64,000 nt of DNA from a bacterium. Lineage in GTDB: Bacteria > Zhuqueibacterota > QNDG01 > JAFGCO01. The stretch covers positions 62,001 through 126,000 of the forward strand of contig JAFGCO010000055.1 of assembly GCA_016932575.1 (NCBI GenBank). The letters run 5' to 3'. The position numbers and the translations under genes are program-made. The number at the start of each line of letters is the position of its first letter. The stretch's first letter is position 1. The notes beneath the pieces were generated by a model, which did not search any database, was not told where the DNA came from, and saw only the letters and a program-made list of their open reading frames with translations. Below are positions 26,544-57,308 of the stretch, one piece after another.

Positions 26544-26559
26544 TGTTCCACGTGGAACA
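26544..26559. other. parS centromere-like site 1
   Basis: A perfect 16-bp palindrome, TGTTCCACGTGGAACA, identical in form to the parS sites bound by ParB in many bacteria (core consensus GTTYCACGTGRAAC). It lies 78 bp upstream of the mnmG start. Origin-proximal position and repetition at 26808 support the call. Confidence 0.88.
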
Positions 26560-26807: not shown

Positions 26808-26823
26808 TGTTCCACGTGGAACA
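26808..26823. other. parS centromere-like site 2
   Basis: A second copy of the same perfect 16-bp palindrome, 264 bp from the first and 59 bp downstream of the mnmE stop. Two exact copies in one non-coding gap are very unlikely by chance. Confidence 0.88.
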
Positions 26824-39985: not shown

Positions 39986-40897
39986 TTACTCATACGGCTC
40001 CAGATGTACGACAACATCAATGATGTCCGGTCCCTGATCTATAAGTGCAGTTTTCACATGTTCAGAAATCATATGCCCTTCCCGAACCGACATTTCCGTG
40101 TTCACCAAAATATGCAAATCCACATGAATATTTGGCCCTAGCCTGCGAGTGCGGATGGCGTGTACCTCCTGAACACCTGGCACCTGGCAAGCAATCTGCC
40201 GGATCGCTTCACGGTCATTTTCACATACTCCGTGATCCGATAATTCCGATACAGCGGGTCGAACGATACTCCATGACACTTTCAGAATAAATAGTGAGAT
40301 GATTATTGCGCCAATGTGATCCACAAATGTCCAATCCGGATTGAGGTAAGCCGCAGCCACGGCAATTAATGCGGGGATCGAGCTCAGAGCATCCGACCGG
40401 TGATGCCAGGCATTGGCAATCACAGCAGGAGACCGGACCTGACTCCCGATAGCAACCGTCCATCGATATAATAATTCCTTAAGCAGGATGGATACCATAG
40501 GACCAAGAAAAGCAATCCATGAAATCCTGTGAACATGGGGATCACGTATAGTGGCCATAGCATGATATCCCAGGGCCACGGCCGCGCCTGCCAGAATCAT
40601 TCCAATCACCACTGTGATTAAGGTTTCGATACGTTTGTGACCGTAAGGGTGGTCGGTATCCGGAGGTGCAGACCAGAATTTCACTCCGAAAAGTACTGCA
40701 CAGTCTGTTGTCATATCAGAGAGGCTGTGCACCGCATCCGCAATAACCGCCTGGCTTGAGCCTAAAAATCCAACTAAAAATTTGATTCCGGCCAGACCTA
40801 AATTGAATGCAAATCCAATCCGGGTAATTTTACGTATCCTGTGAATATCCCTATCTGTCTTTTGATCGAACATGAGCAACCGGTCCATTCGATTCAT
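39986..40897 (-). CDS. Cation diffusion facilitator (CDF) metal transporter
   Basis: About 303 residues from ATG 40897; starts at 40963, 40888 and 40873 are also open. There are six membrane segments. The metal-binding HSLSD (first HxxxD) and HHRSD (second) motifs are present, the latter in AWHHRSDALSSIPALIA, as in Zn/Fe/Cd exporters. The C-terminal cytoplasmic domain (about 215-300) has the usual ferredoxin-like pattern (VHAIRTRRLGPNIHVDLHILV). It is the only minus-strand gene between 33.8 kb and the right edge, and converges with sprA at only 10 bp. Confidence 0.92.
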   Translation of the reverse strand: MNRMDRLLMFDQKTDRDIHRIRKITRIGFAFNLGLAGIKFLVGFLGSSQAVIADAVHSLSDMTTDCAVLFGVKFWSAPPDTDHPYGHKRIETLITVVIGMILAGAAVALGYHAMATIRDPHVHRISWIAFLGPMVSILLKELLYRWTVAIGSQVRSPAVIANAWHHRSDALSSIPALIAVAAAYLNPDWTFVDHIGAIIISLFILKVSWSIVRPAVSELSDHGVCENDREAIRQIACQVPGVQEVHAIRTRRLGPNIHVDLHILVNTEMSVREGHMISEHVKTALIDQGPDIIDVVVHLEPYE

Positions 40898-41006
40898 AGT
40901 CAAAAATAAATATATAACGAACAAATAACATTTCAAATAACAAATTTGTCCTTTAATAATCAAAAAACCGAATTATTGTTTGCGATCATTTTAGGATTTG
41001 TTTACA

Positions 41007-41036
41007 TTGACATCGTGATCATACTGCTGGTATAGG
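41007..41036 (+). promoter_or_regulatory. Possible promoter of the CHASE2 regulator gene
   Basis: TTGACA (41007-41012), an 18-bp spacer and TATAGG (41031-41036), about 175 bp before the gene start, in a 0.25-kb gap with nothing else recognised. The -10 box is imperfect. Confidence 0.35.
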
Positions 41037-41211
41037 GATAACGCGTTGAATTTCGGAAGGCATTGTTTTCTTCTTGAAATCTTAAACCAAGAATGATATG
41101 TCAAGATAGAGATTCTTCGAAATCGTCACGTTTAATGTCTTCGTTTTTATTAAAAATTCTGATTTATAAATGACAACAGATCAACCAAACAATCAACTTC
41201 AGAGGCATTGA

Positions 41212-43767
41212 ATGCTGGAACGACCCATTATCATACGTATCATTATACTGCAATTGATTGTTCTGTTTCTGAGCATTTTCGCAGTGAATTGCAATTTTAT
41301 TTATGATACCGATTCGGACTTGCTTTTGAGAATAAGGGGTCCCAGATCAGCCAGTTCCAAAATCTGTTTTATATATCTGGATGAGTCCGATATTGAAGCT
41401 CTCGGCGGATGGCCAATCACCAGGGATTATTACAGTTATGCAATTCATATCCTGACCGAGAAAAATGCCAAGGTCATCGGATTGGATTTTCTATTAAATA
41501 CACCCAACCGACAATATCCAGAATACGACCGTATGCTGGCAGGTTTCATTAAAACTTCACATCGGGTAGTGCTTCCCTGTGTTCTCAATACTACTGAACC
41601 GGATATAATATCCATAGTAGCACCGATTCCGGAACTGATCCGGAACACCAGGGCAACGGGATTCAGCAATCTGAGTGATGGATCCATTCAGCGTCGCATT
41701 CCAATTGTTTATGAATACGACAGTCTTTCTATCTCATTTGGTCTGGCACTTGCCAAAAATTATCTTGATGCAACGGTAAGAAAAAAAAACCGATATGTTA
41801 TATTCCAGTCCGAAATCTCGGGAATCCTGCATATCCCAACAGACAACACGGGATCGATAAGAATCAATCCGGCGGGATGTGCTTCCCGGTTTCAAAATAT
41901 GCGATTTACCCGTCTTTTAAAAACCTATGAAAGCAATCCGGATTCCCTAAATTTTACAAATCAGCTCGTTCTTATTGGAGCCACCGCTCCCTCACTGCCA
42001 GTAATCCGGTCTACTGCTCTATGCCAGCAAATCCCTGCGGCGCTCATCCACGCAACTGTGGCTGAAAATATTATCGGGCGGAACTGGCTGCGTACTCCAC
42101 CCATCACTTTCAGTTTTTTATGGCTGACCTGCTGGGTAATTATCGGTTTCGTTATCGGGATCCGTACCCGTTGGTACGTTCACTGGCTTCTGGCTGCCAC
42201 TGCAATTCTGATCATTACCTCCTTGGGATGCCTGTATCTGTTTCAGATGATATTTCCCTTATGCCTGTCCTTCACTCTCATGTGGGGAGCAGGTCTATTA
42301 TTCAAAAATATTAAAACAGAACGGATCAAAGAAACGGATTCTGTCCGATTCCGGGAAATCGAAGAACGGATCCGGACAAAAGAGAATGAACTCGAGCAAG
42401 CCGAACAGCGTCTACAAGAAATGGAATCCCGTCTGGTTCGGGAAGCAGCGGAAAAAACAAGACTTTCTGAAAAAACCCGGCAATTGACCAAAGATCAGGA
42501 AACACGCGTGCTTGATCTTGAAAAACAGATCCGGGATTTAAAAGGCTCGGTCAATAAGACTTCAACAACAGCACGATCCCCATTTCCAGAAATCATTCAT
42601 GCGCCAGGGAGCCCTTTAACAAAGGTGCTGGATCTGGTTTCCAAAGTAGCACCTGACAATATCCCGGTTCTCATACAGGGAGAAACGGGTACTGGGAAAG
42701 AATTGATTGCCAGGGCCATTCATCAGACCAGCCACAGAAAGCGAAACCCGTTTGTACCGGTTAATTGCGGGGCTCTATCTGAATCATTACTTGAAAGTGA
42801 ATTATTCGGACATGAAAAAGGCGCCTTTACAGGAGCCCAGAACCAGAGGCGGGGCCGTTTTGAATTGGCCCGCGGAGGCACTATTTTTTTGGATGAAATC
42901 ACAGAAACATCAACGACCTTTCAGGCCCGGCTGCTGCGCGTGCTTCAGGAAGGCACCTTTGAGCGAGTTGGCGGTGAACAAACATTACATGCGGATGTGC
43001 GTGTCATTGCGGCCCATAATAAAGACCTGTCCAAAGAAGTTCTGGAAGGTCATTTTAGGGAGGATCTGTTTTTTCGGCTGAATGCATTTCCTTTGGATTT
43101 ACCTCCCCTACGTAACCGGAAGCAAGATATTCCTCCGCTCATCGAATTTTTTCTAAAACAATATCAAAAATTAGGAAACGTTCGAATATCCGAGGCTGTT
43201 ATGACACGCTTACAGCAATACAGGTGGCCCGGAAATGTTCGGGAACTGGAAAATCTGATCCGAAGGGCCGTGCTTCTTGCAGAGAGTGAAGGCCGAAATA
43301 TGGTACAGCTGAAGGATATACCGGAAGAGGTTCGCCGAGCAGCACCGGAAAAAGTCCCAACTGTATACCATTCTACTGAATCCCAGATTCTTGAAACGTT
43401 ACGAGGATTCCATTTTTCCCATTCTGCGATCAGACAAACTGCAACAGCTTTGGGTAATAAGGACCGGGGCACAATTACGGAATATTACCGTGGTTTGTGT
43501 TTTCAGTATTTCACCCAGTATAACAGTTATGATGAAGCCGCCGCTGCTCTGGCAGCTACTGACGATCCAAAAGTTAAGGAACGCGTTGCAGGAAAAATGC
43601 GAAGTTATGTGGAGAATGTGCGACAATCCGTCTGCGAAAATCCGGATACACCTACCTGCTATAAAGGTTTGCCAAAAAAATTTCATTCCTATCTGGACAC
43701 ACTTGTCCGGGATATCCGGGTAAAACTCGACCGAAGTGTCAGCATACAGCCACCCAAAGTCAGGTAG
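41212..43767 (+). CDS. Membrane-anchored CHASE2 sensor / sigma-54 activator (AAA+) protein
   Basis: 851 residues. An N-terminal helix (about 6-28) leads into an extracytoplasmic CHASE2-type sensor (about 35-295: ICFIYLDESDIEALGGWPITRDYY, KVIGLDFLLN, NQLVLIGATAP). Three helices follow (about 302-368), then a coiled coil (about 370-445). Residues about 455-690 form a sigma-54 AAA+ domain: Walker A GETGTGKE (from 490), GAFTGA at 537-542, Walker B GGTIFLDEI, arginine-finger region FREDLFFRLN. The C-terminus (about 715-851) has a helix-turn-helix-like segment (IRQTATALGNKDRGTITEYY). It appears to be a one-component membrane regulator; no separate kinase or response regulator is adjacent. The ligand and target promoters are unknown. 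Confidence 0.88.
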   Translation: MLERPIIIRIIILQLIVLFLSIFAVNCNFIYDTDSDLLLRIRGPRSASSKICFIYLDESDIEALGGWPITRDYYSYAIHILTEKNAKVIGLDFLLNTPNRQYPEYDRMLAGFIKTSHRVVLPCVLNTTEPDIISIVAPIPELIRNTRATGFSNLSDGSIQRRIPIVYEYDSLSISFGLALAKNYLDATVRKKNRYVIFQSEISGILHIPTDNTGSIRINPAGCASRFQNMRFTRLLKTYESNPDSLNFTNQLVLIGATAPSLPVIRSTALCQQIPAALIHATVAENIIGRNWLRTPPITFSFLWLTCWVIIGFVIGIRTRWYVHWLLAATAILIITSLGCLYLFQMIFPLCLSFTLMWGAGLLFKNIKTERIKETDSVRFREIEERIRTKENELEQAEQRLQEMESRLVREAAEKTRLSEKTRQLTKDQETRVLDLEKQIRDLKGSVNKTSTTARSPFPEIIHAPGSPLTKVLDLVSKVAPDNIPVLIQGETGTGKELIARAIHQTSHRKRNPFVPVNCGALSESLLESELFGHEKGAFTGAQNQRRGRFELARGGTIFLDEITETSTTFQARLLRVLQEGTFERVGGEQTLHADVRVIAAHNKDLSKEVLEGHFREDLFFRLNAFPLDLPPLRNRKQDIPPLIEFFLKQYQKLGNVRISEAVMTRLQQYRWPGNVRELENLIRRAVLLAESEGRNMVQLKDIPEEVRRAAPEKVPTVYHSTESQILETLRGFHFSHSAIRQTATALGNKDRGTITEYYRGLCFQYFTQYNSYDEAAAALAATDDPKVKERVAGKMRSYVENVRQSVCENPDTPTCYKGLPKKFHSYLDTLVRDIRVKLDRSVSIQPPKVR

Positions 43768-43887
43768 TTTTCAGTTGAATGAACTTAAAAATTATTTTCA
43801 GTAAAAACAGAGGATCTCATTTAAAAGATAGCCGTATGATACATGAGACCCTGAAATACATCAGAGAAGGCAGATTTTATAGGGATA

Positions 43888-45771
43888 ATGATGACTCGTA
43901 TATTGCTCACCACGATTATCAAAATAAATTCTGGATGTAAATTGATTACAAAACATCTTTTTATCAATAATCAATGTCTCTTTATCGTCCTGTTGTCAGC
44001 GCTTGTGACCCCATTTATTCACGCTCAGGACATTAATCAGCAACTCCGGCTTGCCCGGGAATATGAAAGCGCCGGTCGCTGGAAGGAAGCAAGACAGTTA
44101 TATGAATCCATGTATTCTGAACAGCCGAATCATCCTGTTCTCTATGAAAGGCTGAAAGAGCTTTATATGCGCACATTTGCATATACCAATGCAAAAGCCA
44201 TAATTGAAAGACAATTGAAACACAATCCTGATAATCCTCATCTTGAAGTGGATCTGGCCAGGGTAATTTTCCGTATGGGAAATGAAAAAGGGGCTTTTGA
44301 CAAACTGGATTCTATTTTAAAAAAATACCCCGAAACGGTCAGTGTATATCAACTGGTTGCCTCCGTTTATACGGCAGAGCGTCTGTATGACCTCGCTATT
44401 AAAACTTATCTTAAAGGACGCGAAACTCTTAACCAGCCCAATCAATTTGCAATCAGCCTGTCCCAGCTTTACGCAGCCCAGTCCGATTACATCCTGGCCT
44501 CAGAAGAACTGGTTTCATATCTTAAAAAAAATCCGACCAGGATTCAATTTGTTCAAACCCTCTATTTAAAGTATCCAAAATCAGAGCAAGTATTAAAACA
44601 GCTCACCGGACCATTAAAAAGAGCCCTGGACGGTTCACCAGATCAACTTGTGTTTTATCGTCTTTTGGCCAAACTGTATGAACATCATGAACAGTATGCC
44701 GACGCTTTGAAAATTATCCAGACATTAGAAAAAGAATCTCCTGATAAAAATCAGGGGAATGCCCTGTTTCAATTCGCCGAAGAGGTATTTCTGAAAGGCT
44801 CTATAATTGAATCGAAAGCGGCTTTTCAAAAAATACTCACAAGTTATCCACAATTTCAAAAACGGGATCGGGTCCTCTTCGGCTTGGCTCAATGCCATGA
44901 AGCGGAATCTGATTATCAACAAGCCATAATAACCTATAAACGGATTGTCAGTGAATTTGATACTCGTGATTTTTCAAAATATGCAGCCCTACATATGGGT
45001 CTTTTGCAACGGGATAGATTATTCAACGTGGAGGATGCGATTCATACTTTCCAGTCGATTAAAAATAAAAATCCAGGGATCCCGATATCATGGACCGCAG
45101 AACTGGAACTCGCCCAATGTTATATGATCAAAAATGATACTGTTTCTGCGCTGCCACTGCTTCTTCAAAACATCCATCGAAGACATCCGGACCGCCCCGG
45201 ACACGACCTTCAAGCCATGTACCATCTGGGACAACTCTACTATTTCAACGGCGATTATAAAAAATCTCTTGTCTGGCTAGACTCCCTGGCATCCAATAAA
45301 TGGCGCGACTCATCATTTCAGCATCCTTTTGTCAACGACGGCCTGAAGCTTCGTTTTTACATCCATCAATATTACAAATCGTACCCTGTTCAGCTTCATT
45401 ATCTCTCACGAACGGACCATCTGATCTTTCAGAGAGATTATGAAACCGCATGTACCACTCTTGACACCGTCATGAAGAACAGTCTTCATGCTCCCATACA
45501 AGGAGACGCGCTTTTTAAAAAGGGAGAATTGATGATCCTTCTTAATAAAAATAAGAACGCTTTGTTATATTTTCAAAAGCTGCTGGATGTGTTTCCTCAT
45601 CATCTTTTAGCGGATCACGCTTTGGAACGGTGTGGATATCTCTATGAAAAATTGAATAAAAACACATTAGCGCTGAAACAATACGAAAAGTTACTCACAG
45701 ATTATCCACACAGTCTCTTCAGTGATGATATTCGAAAACGAATTCAAAATATCGAGAAAAAATCATTATGA
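43888..45771 (+). CDS. Exported TPR-repeat protein
   Basis: 627 residues. A signal-type hydrophobic helix ends IHAQD at about residue 47; the start may be one codon later or further downstream. The remainder is about 14 tetratricopeptide-like repeats (for example AREYESAGRWKEARQLYESMYSEQP, GDALFKKGELMILLNKNKNALLYFQKLLDVFP, ALERCGYLYEKLNKNTLALKQYEKLLTDYP). Such proteins are scaffolds for envelope complexes. It overlaps the next gene by 4 nt, so the two are coupled, and follows the CHASE2 regulator at 120 bp. No specific function is assignable. Confidence 0.82.
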   Translation: MMTRILLTTIIKINSGCKLITKHLFINNQCLFIVLLSALVTPFIHAQDINQQLRLAREYESAGRWKEARQLYESMYSEQPNHPVLYERLKELYMRTFAYTNAKAIIERQLKHNPDNPHLEVDLARVIFRMGNEKGAFDKLDSILKKYPETVSVYQLVASVYTAERLYDLAIKTYLKGRETLNQPNQFAISLSQLYAAQSDYILASEELVSYLKKNPTRIQFVQTLYLKYPKSEQVLKQLTGPLKRALDGSPDQLVFYRLLAKLYEHHEQYADALKIIQTLEKESPDKNQGNALFQFAEEVFLKGSIIESKAAFQKILTSYPQFQKRDRVLFGLAQCHEAESDYQQAIITYKRIVSEFDTRDFSKYAALHMGLLQRDRLFNVEDAIHTFQSIKNKNPGIPISWTAELELAQCYMIKNDTVSALPLLLQNIHRRHPDRPGHDLQAMYHLGQLYYFNGDYKKSLVWLDSLASNKWRDSSFQHPFVNDGLKLRFYIHQYYKSYPVQLHYLSRTDHLIFQRDYETACTTLDTVMKNSLHAPIQGDALFKKGELMILLNKNKNALLYFQKLLDVFPHHLLADHALERCGYLYEKLNKNTLALKQYEKLLTDYPHSLFSDDIRKRIQNIEKKSL

Positions 45772-47018
45772 AGCGCCATGTCTTATTACTTTTTCTGTCC
45801 GGATGGCTTTCAGCTCAAAACGTCCTGATTCCAATGGATCTTCGCCAGACAGACCATTTGAAAGCATATGGAGTGGCGTATTGGATTTTACTTAAGGGTA
45901 AAAATATTGAGTGGTTACTTAATTATCGCGGTGGTAGCTTTATGATGAATTCAGATCCTGAGATTGAGCGGATCTGCCGGATTCGAGGTGTTTATTTTGA
46001 AACCATCAACGTATCAGAGATCACTGCTCTCTATCAGGTTATCGAAAACAGCAATATGGAAGTTGTTCTCCTAGAAAAATCACCTGAAATCGCAGTATAT
46101 ACACCCCCAAATAAACAACCGTGGGATGATGCCGTTACGATGGCCTTGACATATGCTGAGATTCCTTATAAAACCCTATTTGACGAAGATGTGCTACAGG
46201 GTCAGCTTGATCAGTATGACTGGCTTCATTTGCATCATGAAGACTTCACCGGACAATATGGAAAATTTTACTCAAGCTACAGAAACGCCGATTGGTACGT
46301 TCAGCAAAAAGCACTTTTTGAATCTGAAGCCAAAAGGCTTGGATATAAAAAAGTCTCCAAATTAAAACTTGATGTCGTAACATCCATTCAGAATTACATT
46401 AACCGTGGTGGCTTTCTTTTTGCCATGTGCTCGGCCACGGATACTTATGACATTGCGCTTTCTGCAAAAAATACTGATATTTGCGATGTGGTCTTTGATC
46501 ATGACCCTGTAGCTCCGGATTATCAGAGCAAATTAGACTTTTCCTCCTGCCTAGCCTTTGAAAACTTCTCATTATATACAAATCCTATGGTTTATGAGTA
46601 CTCAAATATTGACATTACTCCACCGAATCAGCAGGTACCAACAGAAGCGGCTCATGATTATTTTACCCTCTTCGAATTTTCAGCCAAATACGATCCTGTG
46701 CCTACAATGCTTACGCAGAATCACGTTTCTGTGATTCACAACTTTATGGGTCAAACCACAGGCTATCACAAACAGCTGATTAAAAAAACTGTCGTTATTA
46801 TGGCAGAAAAAGAAGGTACAGACCAAGTGAAATATATTCATGGCAATTTTGGAAAAGGAACATTCACTTTCTTGGGCGGCCATGATCCTGAAGATTATCA
46901 GCATTTTGTCGGAGATCCTCCTACAGAACTTTCTCTTCATAAAAATTCTCCAGGATATCGTCTGATTTTGAATAATATTTTATTTCCGGCTGCAAAAAAG
47001 AAAAAACAAAAAACATAA
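45768..47018 (+). CDS. Conserved FCB-group protein often auto-named asparagine synthetase B; GATase1-like
   Basis: 416 residues with a short signal peptide (about 1-16). From memory of the family, it matches Bacteroidota proteins labelled asparagine synthetase B (VLIPMDLRQTDHLKAYGVAYWIL, LLNYRGGSF, AVYTPPNKQPWDDAVTMALTYAEIPY, DWLHLHHEDFTGQYGKFY, RGGFLFAMCSATDTYDIAL). It lacks the N-terminal Ntn glutaminase and the ATP-PP domain of true asparagine synthetases, so that name is doubtful; exported location also argues against it. The GFLFAMCSATD segment resembles a class-I amidotransferase elbow. It is translationally coupled to the TPR gene. Confidence 0.8.
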   Translation: MKRHVLLLFLSGWLSAQNVLIPMDLRQTDHLKAYGVAYWILLKGKNIEWLLNYRGGSFMMNSDPEIERICRIRGVYFETINVSEITALYQVIENSNMEVVLLEKSPEIAVYTPPNKQPWDDAVTMALTYAEIPYKTLFDEDVLQGQLDQYDWLHLHHEDFTGQYGKFYSSYRNADWYVQQKALFESEAKRLGYKKVSKLKLDVVTSIQNYINRGGFLFAMCSATDTYDIALSAKNTDICDVVFDHDPVAPDYQSKLDFSSCLAFENFSLYTNPMVYEYSNIDITPPNQQVPTEAAHDYFTLFEFSAKYDPVPTMLTQNHVSVIHNFMGQTTGYHKQLIKKTVVIMAEKEGTDQVKYIHGNFGKGTFTFLGGHDPEDYQHFVGDPPTELSLHKNSPGYRLILNNILFPAAKKKKQKT

Positions 47019-47039
47019 TTAAGAATTGTATTTGGGCTG

Positions 47040-47370
47040 GTGATGTATTTAAAATTTATTTTAACGTCGGTGTTTATAGACAAGACATATATTAAATAGA
47101 TATAAAAGAAAGTTAAATAAGTAATAATAATTATAATGTGGATTGTGTGGATAATCAGTGCGTGTGACCGCATGAAGCATTTAATTTTAAACTGTTAGAG
47201 AGGATTGAATAACGGAAGAATATGTGAATTGTGTGTGGAAAATACAAGGAAAGACAGTGGATAAACGGCTGACGGAGTGAAACAAATAGGATATATCAAA
47301 TTGTATCCACATTAAATACACATGGAACTAACATATATACACAAGTGTGATATTTTGGATGTGGATAGAT
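47040..47370. other. Candidate chromosomal replication origin (oriC)
   Basis: Part of a 569-bp gene-free gap. Six DnaA-box-like 9-mers: TGTGGATAA at 47146-47154 (perfect), TGTGGATTG 47137-47145 (7/9), TGTGGAAAA 47234-47242, AGTGGATAA 47256-47264, GTATCCACA (opposite strand) 47303-47311 and TGTGGATAG 47360-47368 (8/9 each). An AT-rich stretch at 47041-47136 could be the unwinding element. Hand counts of 60-base lines in plus-strand genes give G 58 / C 68 in five lines left of the gap and G 58 / C 27 in three lines right of it, so skew changes here. Right of it all genes read away; on the left the mnmE-rpmH and lpt blocks do too. Confidence 0.75.
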
Positions 47371-47423
47371 ATTTAGTGAAGAGATAGTAACATATGAAGC
47401 CATTGATAATGCCCCATATTTCC

Positions 47424-47452
47424 TTGACTTTTAAGAGAATTCTTTTTATAAT
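47424..47452 (+). promoter_or_regulatory. Strong putative promoter ahead of rsmI leader
   Basis: TTGACT (47424-47429), a 17-bp spacer and a perfect TATAAT (47447-47452). Transcription would start near 47459, about 130 nt before rsmI, directly downstream of the DnaA-box cluster. Confidence 0.75.
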
Positions 47453-47458
47453 ATTAAG

Positions 47459-47566
47459 CTTTTATGAAAAGTAACACGGAGCATTGTGCTTTGAATTTTA
47501 ACGGGTGAAGAAGCCGCTTTCTTTTTATATAAAAGGCACAAAGAAAGCGGCTTCTCTTTGATTTTT
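47459..47566 (+). ncRNA. Candidate short RNA or attenuated leader upstream of rsmI
   Basis: The stretch between the promoter at 47424-47452 and the hairpin ending at 47566 would give a transcript of about 105 nt if termination occurs. It has no open reading frame of note and matches no RNA family recognised. Either a small RNA from the origin region or a leader that controls read-through into rsmI. This is inference from promoter and terminator placement only. Confidence 0.3.
47509..47566 (+). terminator. 16-bp stem hairpin followed by T-rich tract before rsmI
   Basis: A perfect 16-bp stem, 47509-47524 with 47540-47555, loop 15 nt, followed by CTTTGATTTTT. The T-rich run is on the plus strand only. 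It ends 22 bp upstream of the rsmI start, inside the leader from the promoter at 47424. Confidence 0.75.
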
Positions 47567-47587
47567 ATGATTGCATAGTTCATAAAA

Positions 47588-48298
47588 ATGCATCGGAATG
47601 CCTTGCAAAAAGTGAATTATGGCGTACTTTATGTGGTCGGTACACCGATCGGAAATTTAGAAGATATTTCATTCCGGGCGATTCGAATTTTAAAAGATGT
47701 TGATTGGATTGCTGCTGAAGATACGAGAAGGACTCAGCAATTATTGAAACATTTTGGTATTCAGAATCGATTGGAGAGCTATCACGACCACAACAAAGAA
47801 ATAAAAGCACCGATTTTAATTCGGAGATTGATTTCAGGACAAGATATTGCCGTTGTTTCAGATGCAGGAACACCGGGAATTTCTGATCCGGCATATCGTC
47901 TGATCAGAGAGGCGTTATCGGAAAATATATCTGTTGTTCCCGTTCCGGGACCCACTGCGGCAATTGCGGCCGTTTCTGTTTCAGGGCTGCCAACAGATCG
48001 TTTTGTATTTGAAGGATTTATTCCGGTGAAAAAGGGAAGAAAAAGCCGGATTAAATCGATTAAAGATGAAAGCCGGACGCTTATTGTTTATGAATCACCC
48101 CACCGTCTTCTTAAGACGTTGAGGGATCTTCAAAGCGTTCTTGGGGATAGGCCTGTGGCGGTTTGCAGGGAGCTAACAAAGAAGTTTGAGGAAGTAATAC
48201 ACGGAACAATATCTGAAAGCATTGAAATTTTTTCTAACAGAAAAATACGCGGAGAGTTTGTATTGGTGATTCATGGTAAAACAGGAAAAAAAGCATGA
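47588..48298 (+). CDS. rsmI: 16S rRNA 2'-O-ribose C1402 methyltransferase RsmI
   Basis: 236 residues with the tetrapyrrole-methylase-like fold of RsmI: LYVVGTPIGNLEDISFRAIRILK, DVDWIAAEDTRRTQQLLKHFGI, VVSDAGTPGISDPAYRLI and VPGPTAAIAAVSVSGLP. It methylates the ribose of C1402 of 16S rRNA. Start ATG 47588 has no ribosome-binding site; a GTG at 47612 (VNYGVLYVVG) is a plausible alternative. It overlaps the next gene by 4 nt. Confidence 0.95.
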   Translation: MHRNALQKVNYGVLYVVGTPIGNLEDISFRAIRILKDVDWIAAEDTRRTQQLLKHFGIQNRLESYHDHNKEIKAPILIRRLISGQDIAVVSDAGTPGISDPAYRLIREALSENISVVPVPGPTAAIAAVSVSGLPTDRFVFEGFIPVKKGRKSRIKSIKDESRTLIVYESPHRLLKTLRDLQSVLGDRPVAVCRELTKKFEEVIHGTISESIEIFSNRKIRGEFVLVIHGKTGKKA

Positions 48299-55484: not shown

Positions 55485-55504
55485 TGTGGACAAGTTGTGT
55501 ATAA
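55485..55504 (+). promoter_or_regulatory. Two DnaA-like boxes in the dnaA leader
   Basis: TGTGGACAA (55485-55493, 8/9) and TGTGTATAA (55496-55504, fits TTWTNCACA on the opposite strand). A third, perfect TGTGGATAA is at 55674-55682, inside codons 4-7 of dnaA. Position just after the promoter suggests DnaA autoregulation; a second origin sub-region is the alternative. Confidence 0.6.
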
Positions 55505-55662: not shown

Positions 55663-57057
55663 ATGTCATTGGATGTGGATAACTGCGCGTTAAATGTGAA
55701 CAACCAAGATCCAAGAGAAGTGTGGAAGCATGCATTGTCTTTGATACAAGAACATGTAAATCCACAGAGTTATCGCACCTGGTTTTTGCCCATTGAACCC
55801 CTCCGGGTAGAGGGAAGAAAGTTGACTGTACAGGTTCCCAGTCAATTTTTCTATGAATGGCTGGAAGAGCATTACCCCCATGTGATTCGTCAGGCATTGT
55901 CTCAAGTATTGGGCGAGGAATCCGTTCCTGTATATGCAATTCTGCAAAAAGAAGAGCAAAAGGCAACCATCCAATCAGATCCGCCCAAAAGAATGGCTGG
56001 TCAATATATGGGCGAAGATACACATCTGAATTCAAGATACACATTCGATACCTTTGTGGAAGGAAAGGGAAATCAATTTGCCAAGGCCGCATCCCTGGCA
56101 GTATCAGAAGCTCCTGGCCGTACCTCGTTTAATCCCCTGGTTTTATACGGGGGAGTCGGTCTGGGAAAAACCCATCTGATTCAGGGTATTGGAAATTTTG
56201 CAAAGGATAGGAATACGGCAAGCCGTATTAAATATGTTTCTAGTGAAAAATTTACCATTGATTTTATCAATTCAATTCAAAACAACAGGACGAATGAGTT
56301 CAGTCAGCTTTACAGGAATGTAGACCTGCTTCTCGTCGATGATATTCAGTTTTTTATGGCCAAAGAACGTACGCAGGAAGAATTTTTTCATACATTTAAT
56401 GCATTGCATCAGAAGGGAAAGCAGATCGTGCTTTCTTCTGATCGACCCCCTAAAGAATTGAAAGGATTGGAAGAACGCTTGGTTTCACGGTTTCAATGGG
56501 GACTCGTGGCTGAAATACAGCCACCCGATTTGGAAACGCGAATTGCCATTCTACAGCAAAAAGCGGAAATGGACGGAATCGATCTTCCCATGGAAATCAT
56601 TGAATTTGTCGCTGTGAATATAACTTCAAATATTCGTGAACTTGAGGGCGCTCTGATTAAATTGCTCGCATACTCATCGTTGCGAGGGATAGACATTAAT
56701 CTGGAACTTGCCAAAATGGTTTTAAAAGATATTCTAATTACACGGCGTAAAGATATTTCTATAGAAGAAATTCAAAGGGTGGTCTGTGAATATTATGAAA
56801 TTCCCGATGATTTATTAAGGGGGAAGAGCCGTAAAAAAGAAATTGCTCTGGCCCGGCAAATTGCCATGTATCTGTCAAAAGAAATGACGCATTATTCTTT
56901 AAAAAGTATAGGCCTTCATTTTGGCGGCAGGGATCATACAACGGTTATCCATGCCATTCGAACCATTGATGATCTGTTAAGCAACAAAGAAAAAGATCAT
57001 AAATTTCCAGAAACCATCGATACGCTGAGAAAGAAGATTGAAGTCGCCTCTCTTTAG
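55663..57057 (+). CDS. dnaA: Chromosomal replication initiator protein DnaA
   Basis: 464 residues. Domain I (about 10-90) has the normal helical pattern (SYRTWFLPIEPL). The AAA+ domain III has Walker A GGVGLGKT (163-170), LLVDDIQF as Walker B and RFQWGLVAEIQPPD. Domain IV ends with the DNA-binding signature GGRDHTTVIHA (421-431). AGGAG precedes the ATG by about 7 nt. It sits 8.2 kb from the best oriC candidate rather than directly beside it. Confidence 0.98.
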   Translation: MSLDVDNCALNVNNQDPREVWKHALSLIQEHVNPQSYRTWFLPIEPLRVEGRKLTVQVPSQFFYEWLEEHYPHVIRQALSQVLGEESVPVYAILQKEEQKATIQSDPPKRMAGQYMGEDTHLNSRYTFDTFVEGKGNQFAKAASLAVSEAPGRTSFNPLVLYGGVGLGKTHLIQGIGNFAKDRNTASRIKYVSSEKFTIDFINSIQNNRTNEFSQLYRNVDLLLVDDIQFFMAKERTQEEFFHTFNALHQKGKQIVLSSDRPPKELKGLEERLVSRFQWGLVAEIQPPDLETRIAILQQKAEMDGIDLPMEIIEFVAVNITSNIRELEGALIKLLAYSSLRGIDINLELAKMVLKDILITRRKDISIEEIQRVVCEYYEIPDDLLRGKSRKKEIALARQIAMYLSKEMTHYSLKSIGLHFGGRDHTTVIHAIRTIDDLLSNKEKDHKFPETIDTLRKKIEVASL

Positions 57058-57067
57058 AACATTTCTC

Positions 57068-57096
57068 TTGAACATTACATAAAAAGTTATTATAAT
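57068..57096 (+). promoter_or_regulatory. Putative dnaN promoter
   Basis: TTGAAC (57068-57073), a 17-bp spacer and perfect TATAAT (57091-57096) just after the dnaA stop. It leaves a leader of about 200 nt before dnaN; nothing else was recognised in that 251-bp gap. Confidence 0.7.
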
Positions 57097-57308
57097 AATA
57101 GGTTACAATAAATAATAGCCTGTCGGTATAACAGGGTGATTGGATCAACCGAGCATTGGATAGAGATCGGATTCAGGTGACGGCGGAGAAGGAACGTTAG
57201 AGACCAGTTGTTTGAATTAAAGTTATATTCGACTGGGCGGACAATACAATTATCGTCGGGTTAATGACTCTATAGAATAAGGTGTTTTAATCCAGGAGGA
57301 CAGGGAGA

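Follow-up and report, generated by a model that had tools for sequence, protein, structure and literature searches.

Does replication of this chromosome start beside dnaA, or in an AT-rich intergenic gap 8.3 kb away from it? The origin of bacterial chromosomes often, but not always, adjoins dnaA (PMC4285127, PMC10225481), and the oriC of E. coli is located apart from it (PMC8287927, PMC4285127). The window analyzed here is the whole stretch of 64,000 nucleotides at positions 62001-126000 of a 407-kb contig (G000:C6), which belongs to a genome (G000) of the KSB1 lineage. The gap lies at positions 47,019-47,587 of the window and has 569 bp and an AT content of 69.6%, compared with 56% for the contig. 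According to its sequence this gap is very probably oriC, with the nearest DnaA box 8.3 kb from the start of dnaA (55,663). We give a probability of about 0.92 to the reading that it is the chromosomal origin, that it uses a mechanism like the basal unwinding system (BUS), and that its position was derived by a shift from the dnaA-dnaN gap.

GC skew and replichore boundary

Skew was profiled on four contigs of G000, which represent 1.1 of 4.4 Mb, about a quarter of the genome. Across the entire 407-kb contig the cumulative GC skew falls for 109 kb and then rises for 298 kb, with its minimum at window position 46,773; keto skew is lowest at 47,025, and a two-segment fit places the changepoint of skew at 46,950. 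The first-pass annotation had proposed a skew change at the gap, and the contig minimum is indeed at 46.8-47.0 kb, not at 55.4 kb. On the other three contigs (690 kb), no interior skew minimum comes near this depth. In the profiled quarter of the genome, the gap coincides with the GC-skew minimum and replichore boundary.

Predicted genes of the contig are mainly on the minus strand left of the gap (56 of 65, 86%) and mainly on the plus strand right of it (182 of 231, 79%). Coding bias fails to explain the skew change, as had been claimed, because the third-position skew of plus-strand genes switches sign across the gap, from −0.15 to −0.01 on the left to +0.15 to +0.39 on the right. A strand-corrected step model, in which the skew of 200-bp segments was regressed on gene strand and side, located the best step at 47.0 kb, with 46.7-47.0 kb within 1.92 log units. 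The gap (contig 109,288-109,300) is 1.9-4.3 log units off this optimum, which is within a few hundred bases, and the penalties were −32.5 (ΔlnL) for a site upstream of dnaA and −34.3 for the dnaA-dnaN gap.

DnaA boxes in the gap

Six DnaA-box-like 9-mers had been reported in the gap (one perfect, four 8/9 and one 7/9), and all of them were found. The perfect box TTATCCACA (47146-47154, minus strand) is abutted by the weaker 7/9 box CAATCCACA (47137-47145, minus strand), recognized by direct reading, and both form a tandem pair in which the perfect box is the upstream member. Two boxes with one mismatch also lie on the minus strand, TTTTCCACA (47234-47242), 88 bp from the BUS box of the pair, and TTATCCACT (47256-47264), 22 bp further. 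The box scan also found GTATCCACA (47303-47311, plus strand) and CTATCCACA (47360-47368, minus strand), each with one mismatch.

The excess of boxes over shuffled sequence, also anticipated by the earlier reading, was clear: five boxes with at most one mismatch were observed against a shuffle mean of 0.24-0.27, and none of 2000 dinucleotide shuffles reached five. None of the other AT-rich (≥66%) 331-bp stretches of the 407-kb contig contains more than three boxes. The gap is the densest box cluster on the four G000 contigs, 1.1 Mb in total, and the three contigs other than that of the window show at most two boxes per 330 bp. Thus, the gap contains an intergenic DnaA-box cluster above chance. 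Scattered boxes, two of them perfect, are also present inside genes 1.4-2.4 kb left of the gap. At the genome level, the word TTATCCACA is more frequent than its reversed word in G000 (81 versus 17) and in the related genome G002 (139 versus 44), and shows no such excess in G007 and G011.

Candidate basal unwinding system

The published BUS rules call for a box with at most two mismatches, a second box within 3 bp, and 0-16 bp to at least three DnaA-trios, whose middle base is fixed (PMC8287927). Under these rules, a run of five trios, TTA-TTA-TTA-CTT-ATT, was identified at 47116-47130 on the minus strand, 15 bp from the perfect box; the order on that strand is TTATCCACA-CAATCCACA-TTATAA-TTA-TTA-TTA-CTT-ATT, as seen both in the scan and by direct reading. 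With 15 bp, the spacer comes close to the allowed maximum, and the trios are AAT instead of GAT. Among the trio combinations of the contig that contain a perfect box, this module has the top score. The trio scan by itself is unspecific, as the module is outscored by a gyrA site whose box is imperfect, and it is the combination with skew and box cluster that carries weight. Adjoining the boxes is a probable DNA unwinding element (47040-47144), of which 47040-47136 has 82% AT; its least stable 75 bp start at about 47070, with an instability exceeded by 0.026% of the 75-bp positions of the contig.

The skew, the boxes, the trio run and the AT-rich stretch are observed features, from which we infer the activity of the origin. 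The gap contains a candidate BUS, and strand separation by the cognate DnaA is predicted from its sequence. By analogy with the known BUS, DnaA would first occupy the scattered boxes, next bind the tandem pair (47154-47137, minus strand), and from there form a filament on the trio run (47130-47116). The AT-rich stretch 47040-47136 would melt and two helicases would be loaded, with one fork moving leftwards towards the parS sites and the other rightwards via rsmI, dnaA, dnaN and gyrAB.

The module shares with the BUS of Bacillus subtilis (PMC6669920, PMC8287927) the tandem boxes, the short spacer, the trios, the AT-rich unwinding side and the box polarity towards the trios. It differs in that it is not beside dnaA, has a spacer of 15 bp and shows mostly AAT trios.

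Origin position in related genomes

The gene order rsmI-pgsA-panD-INO1-S41-PPDK-dnaA-dnaN-DUF721-gyrB-gyrA is common to the order members G001-G011 on contigs that are long enough, with the exceptions of G007 and G011. In G003, G004, G005 and G009, a box cluster was found in the dnaA-dnaN gap, which is about 305-313 bp, together with a box-trio-like sequence at its dnaN end. Part of this cluster was seen in G008 and G010, on short contigs. G001 and G006 show a skew step at dnaA-dnaN and trio-like runs (CACTACTACAACAACTA in G001), with few good boxes there. None of these eight genomes has a box cluster upstream of rsmI. Skew at fourfold sites agrees with an origin upstream of rsmI in G000 (left −0.15, rsmI-dnaA block +0.04, right +0.12) and with a dnaA-dnaN origin in G006 (left −0.34, block −0.37, right +0.08), and is weaker in the other genomes. 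In G004 (G004:C29:1-100000) two signals conflict: the dnaA-dnaN gap holds the cluster, but the strand-corrected skew step falls 10 kb from there, at the start of rsmI; this mismatch is perhaps the trace of another shift, or a result of poor ORF calling at high GC.

G000 and G002 do show a box cluster upstream of rsmI, and their dnaA-dnaN gaps have no box (G000) or one box (G002). G002 is an independent assembly from a different family than the window genome. Its origin can be aligned with that of G000: the tandem BUS pair is also present, followed by 86 bp (88 bp in G000), a box, 22 bp in both genomes, and a second box. To the right of the boxes, G002 and G000 share a promoter (TTGACTTTT..TATAATATT), then a hairpin (GCCGCTTTC..GAAAGCGGC), and then rsmI. 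The G002 module has canonical trios, TTA-CTA-CTA-ATA-CTC, 11 bp from a perfect box, with GAT trios present. Similarity of the box regions is modest, being reached by six of 200 shuffles, so that the orthology of both origins is judged by their place, their layout and the elements beside them. In G002 the fitted skew step lies 0.9 kb to the right of the cluster, on a contig that ends before dnaA, so the dnaA sites are not comparable there. A BLAST search of the order with the G002 origin gave no orthologue elsewhere, only short promoter-like matches, and in a contig scan reaching many other phyla, the loci with rsmI showed no cluster in the gap that immediately precedes this gene. Among the more distant relatives examined within the phylum, box clusters beside dnaA are the rule.

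In G007 (C63, C57) and G011 (C192, C387), dnaN-gyrB-gyrA is separated from dnaA. Searches with perfect boxes found no new cluster in either genome and did not locate their origins; the gap upstream of rsmI in G011 has no box with at most one mismatch, and the G007 contig ends inside pgsA.

The dnaA region and alternative explanations

The dnaA gene of the window (55663-57057, plus strand; TIGR00362, 558 bits) has two DnaA boxes upstream of it (55485-55504, minus strand), and the dnaA-dnaN gap (57058-57308), where most lineages outside the clade of G000 have their box cluster, contains no box with at most one mismatch. If the true origin were at dnaA, either upstream or in the dnaA-dnaN gap, the 47-kb cluster would be a site of DnaA titration or a DnaA-regulated promoter, like datA or DARS. 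The three boxes at the dnaA start and the dnaA-dnaN clusters of most relatives outside the clade speak for this; however, the window shows no cluster at either position, and strand-corrected skew rejects both by more than 32 log units. Furthermore, comparable boxes upstream of dnaA occur in nearly every relative in which the dnaA start is present, whatever its origin position, which fits autoregulation, probably their function. We therefore regard an origin at dnaA as very improbable. A bipartite origin, with unwinding at the 47-kb cluster and the dnaA boxes as a second subregion, appears more improbable still. Box groups do exist at both places, and some known origins are bipartite, with a spacer gene (PMC4285127), but these extend over no more than about 2 kb (PMC4285127), whereas the dnaA boxes are 8 kb to the right, are few, and are similar in genomes with dnaA-dnaN clusters.

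The window comes from a draft assembly of 72 contigs, and the skew step could in principle have arisen by a recent inversion, or by chimeric assembly with its junction at the gap. This is hardly credible, because the independent G002 assembly also has the cluster upstream of rsmI and next to SprA, and because, to the right, the arrangement rsmI...dnaA-dnaN-gyrB-gyrA persists throughout the order. The central claim of the first-pass annotation, an origin at 47 kb and not beside dnaA, is thus upheld by skew, box excess, BUS elements, low stability and the orthologous origin of G002.

Probable history of the proposed origin shift

A phylogeny of nine markers obtained with FastTree groups G000, G011, G002 and G007 in a clade with support of 1.0, nested within the order. 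The synteny and this clade are observed; how many shifts occurred, in which direction and with what benefit, if any, is our inference. As dnaA-adjacent clusters are the rule in the distant relatives of the phylum, the dnaA-dnaN gap is likely the ancestral origin position. The order ancestor would have used that gap, and the sequences suggest that one shift of roughly 8-10 kb, to the gap upstream of rsmI, likely took place before or within the clade, perhaps already in its ancestor. In the simplest history, the old site decayed after the shift and dnaN later left dnaA in G007 and G011, the two sister lineages in which the dnaA-dnaN junction is broken. Given that the origins of these two genomes were not located, the single-shift reading rests on two genomes. 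The shift would place the rsmI-dnaA block of seven genes on the leading strand.

The dnaA-dnaN origins of G003, G004, G005 and G009 and the window origin all have a box cluster pointing into a box-trio-AT module, which in those genomes is near dnaN. The window origin differs in its location upstream of rsmI and in the opposite polarity of its module relative to the flanking genes: the new module, upstream of rsmI, is directed away from that gene, and the old one is directed at dnaN. Inverted alignments between new and old origins beat direct ones in most pairs, with short scores driven by the boxes, which is compatible with a move in which the dnaA-dnaN origin was copied in inverted orientation. 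That the whole change was a single relocation of such an inverted copy over 8-10 kb, which freed the dnaA-dnaN junction and turned seven genes from head-on to co-directional, is a tentative proposal that we consider possible but rather doubtful. If true, it would be a natural before-and-after case of a bacterial origin changing address.

Comparison with known origins

An origin away from dnaA is of a known kind. The E. coli oriC (gidA/mnmG-mioC) is likewise distant from dnaA, and mnmG is also present in the wider surroundings of the window origin, 20 kb off. The E. coli origin differs in its flanking genes, and its BUS score is weak (PMC8287927). In Synechococcus lividus the origin is far from dnaA and dnaN (PMC6323995); the oriC of strain PCC 6715 (DoriC 10, PMC6323995) is, as here, displaced from both genes relative to its relatives, although it belongs to a different phylum and its box sequence (TTTTCCACA) differs. 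The history of that move is not described in PMC6323995. To our knowledge, the place upstream of rsmI and the visible before and after are new. Routes of origin relocation are rarely visible, and here both states can be read from relatives with a cluster at the apparent old address, from the clade with the changed position, and from a gene order that hardly varies. The locus suits the study of how an origin shift alters gene-strand conflicts and skew, and if chromosomes of this uncultured group were numbered from dnaA, position 1 would not mark the origin.

Flanking genes and elements

The gap is flanked on the right by rsmI (47588-48298) and on the left by an unnamed conserved gene (45768-47018), whose protein is 60-73% identical in relatives. 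The earlier description of an origin between an AsnB-like gene and rsmI was right in location; the name AsnB-like has to be dropped, since the protein has no Pfam or NCBIfam match. This protein is kept in 55 of 59 relatives, and elsewhere in the phylum its gene frequently lies no more than 30 kb from dnaA. In the window, the region from SprA to the origin (39986-47018) contains four intervening genes, encoding a cation efflux protein, a CHASE2/sigma-54 activator, a TPR protein and the unnamed conserved protein, while in G002 SprA directly adjoins the origin gap.

Two identical parS-like palindromes, TGTTCCACGTGGAACA, are located at 26544-26559 and 26808-26823, on the 5' side of mnmG, and no other near-exact parS site was found in the genome. 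In G001, G002, G004 and G006, a comparable pair lies 13-21 kb left of rsmI, with a one-base difference in G006, which suggests that parS stayed put while the origin moved.

Between the boxes and rsmI, a strong sigma-70-like promoter, TTGACT-17-TATAAT (47424-47452, plus strand; 11 of 12 positions), faces rsmI and points away from the origin; it is aligned with the G002 element. It is followed by a strong hairpin, GAAGCCGCTTTC..GAAAGCGGCTTC, with a T-rich tail (47510-47565, plus strand; z −3.4), which is also present in G002. An Rfam search of the gap gave no family above threshold. Candidate readings of the hairpin are a terminator, an attenuator or the end of a small RNA ahead of rsmI, and promoter and conserved hairpin together (47424-47565) may define an origin-proximal small RNA or an attenuated leader of about 110 nt.
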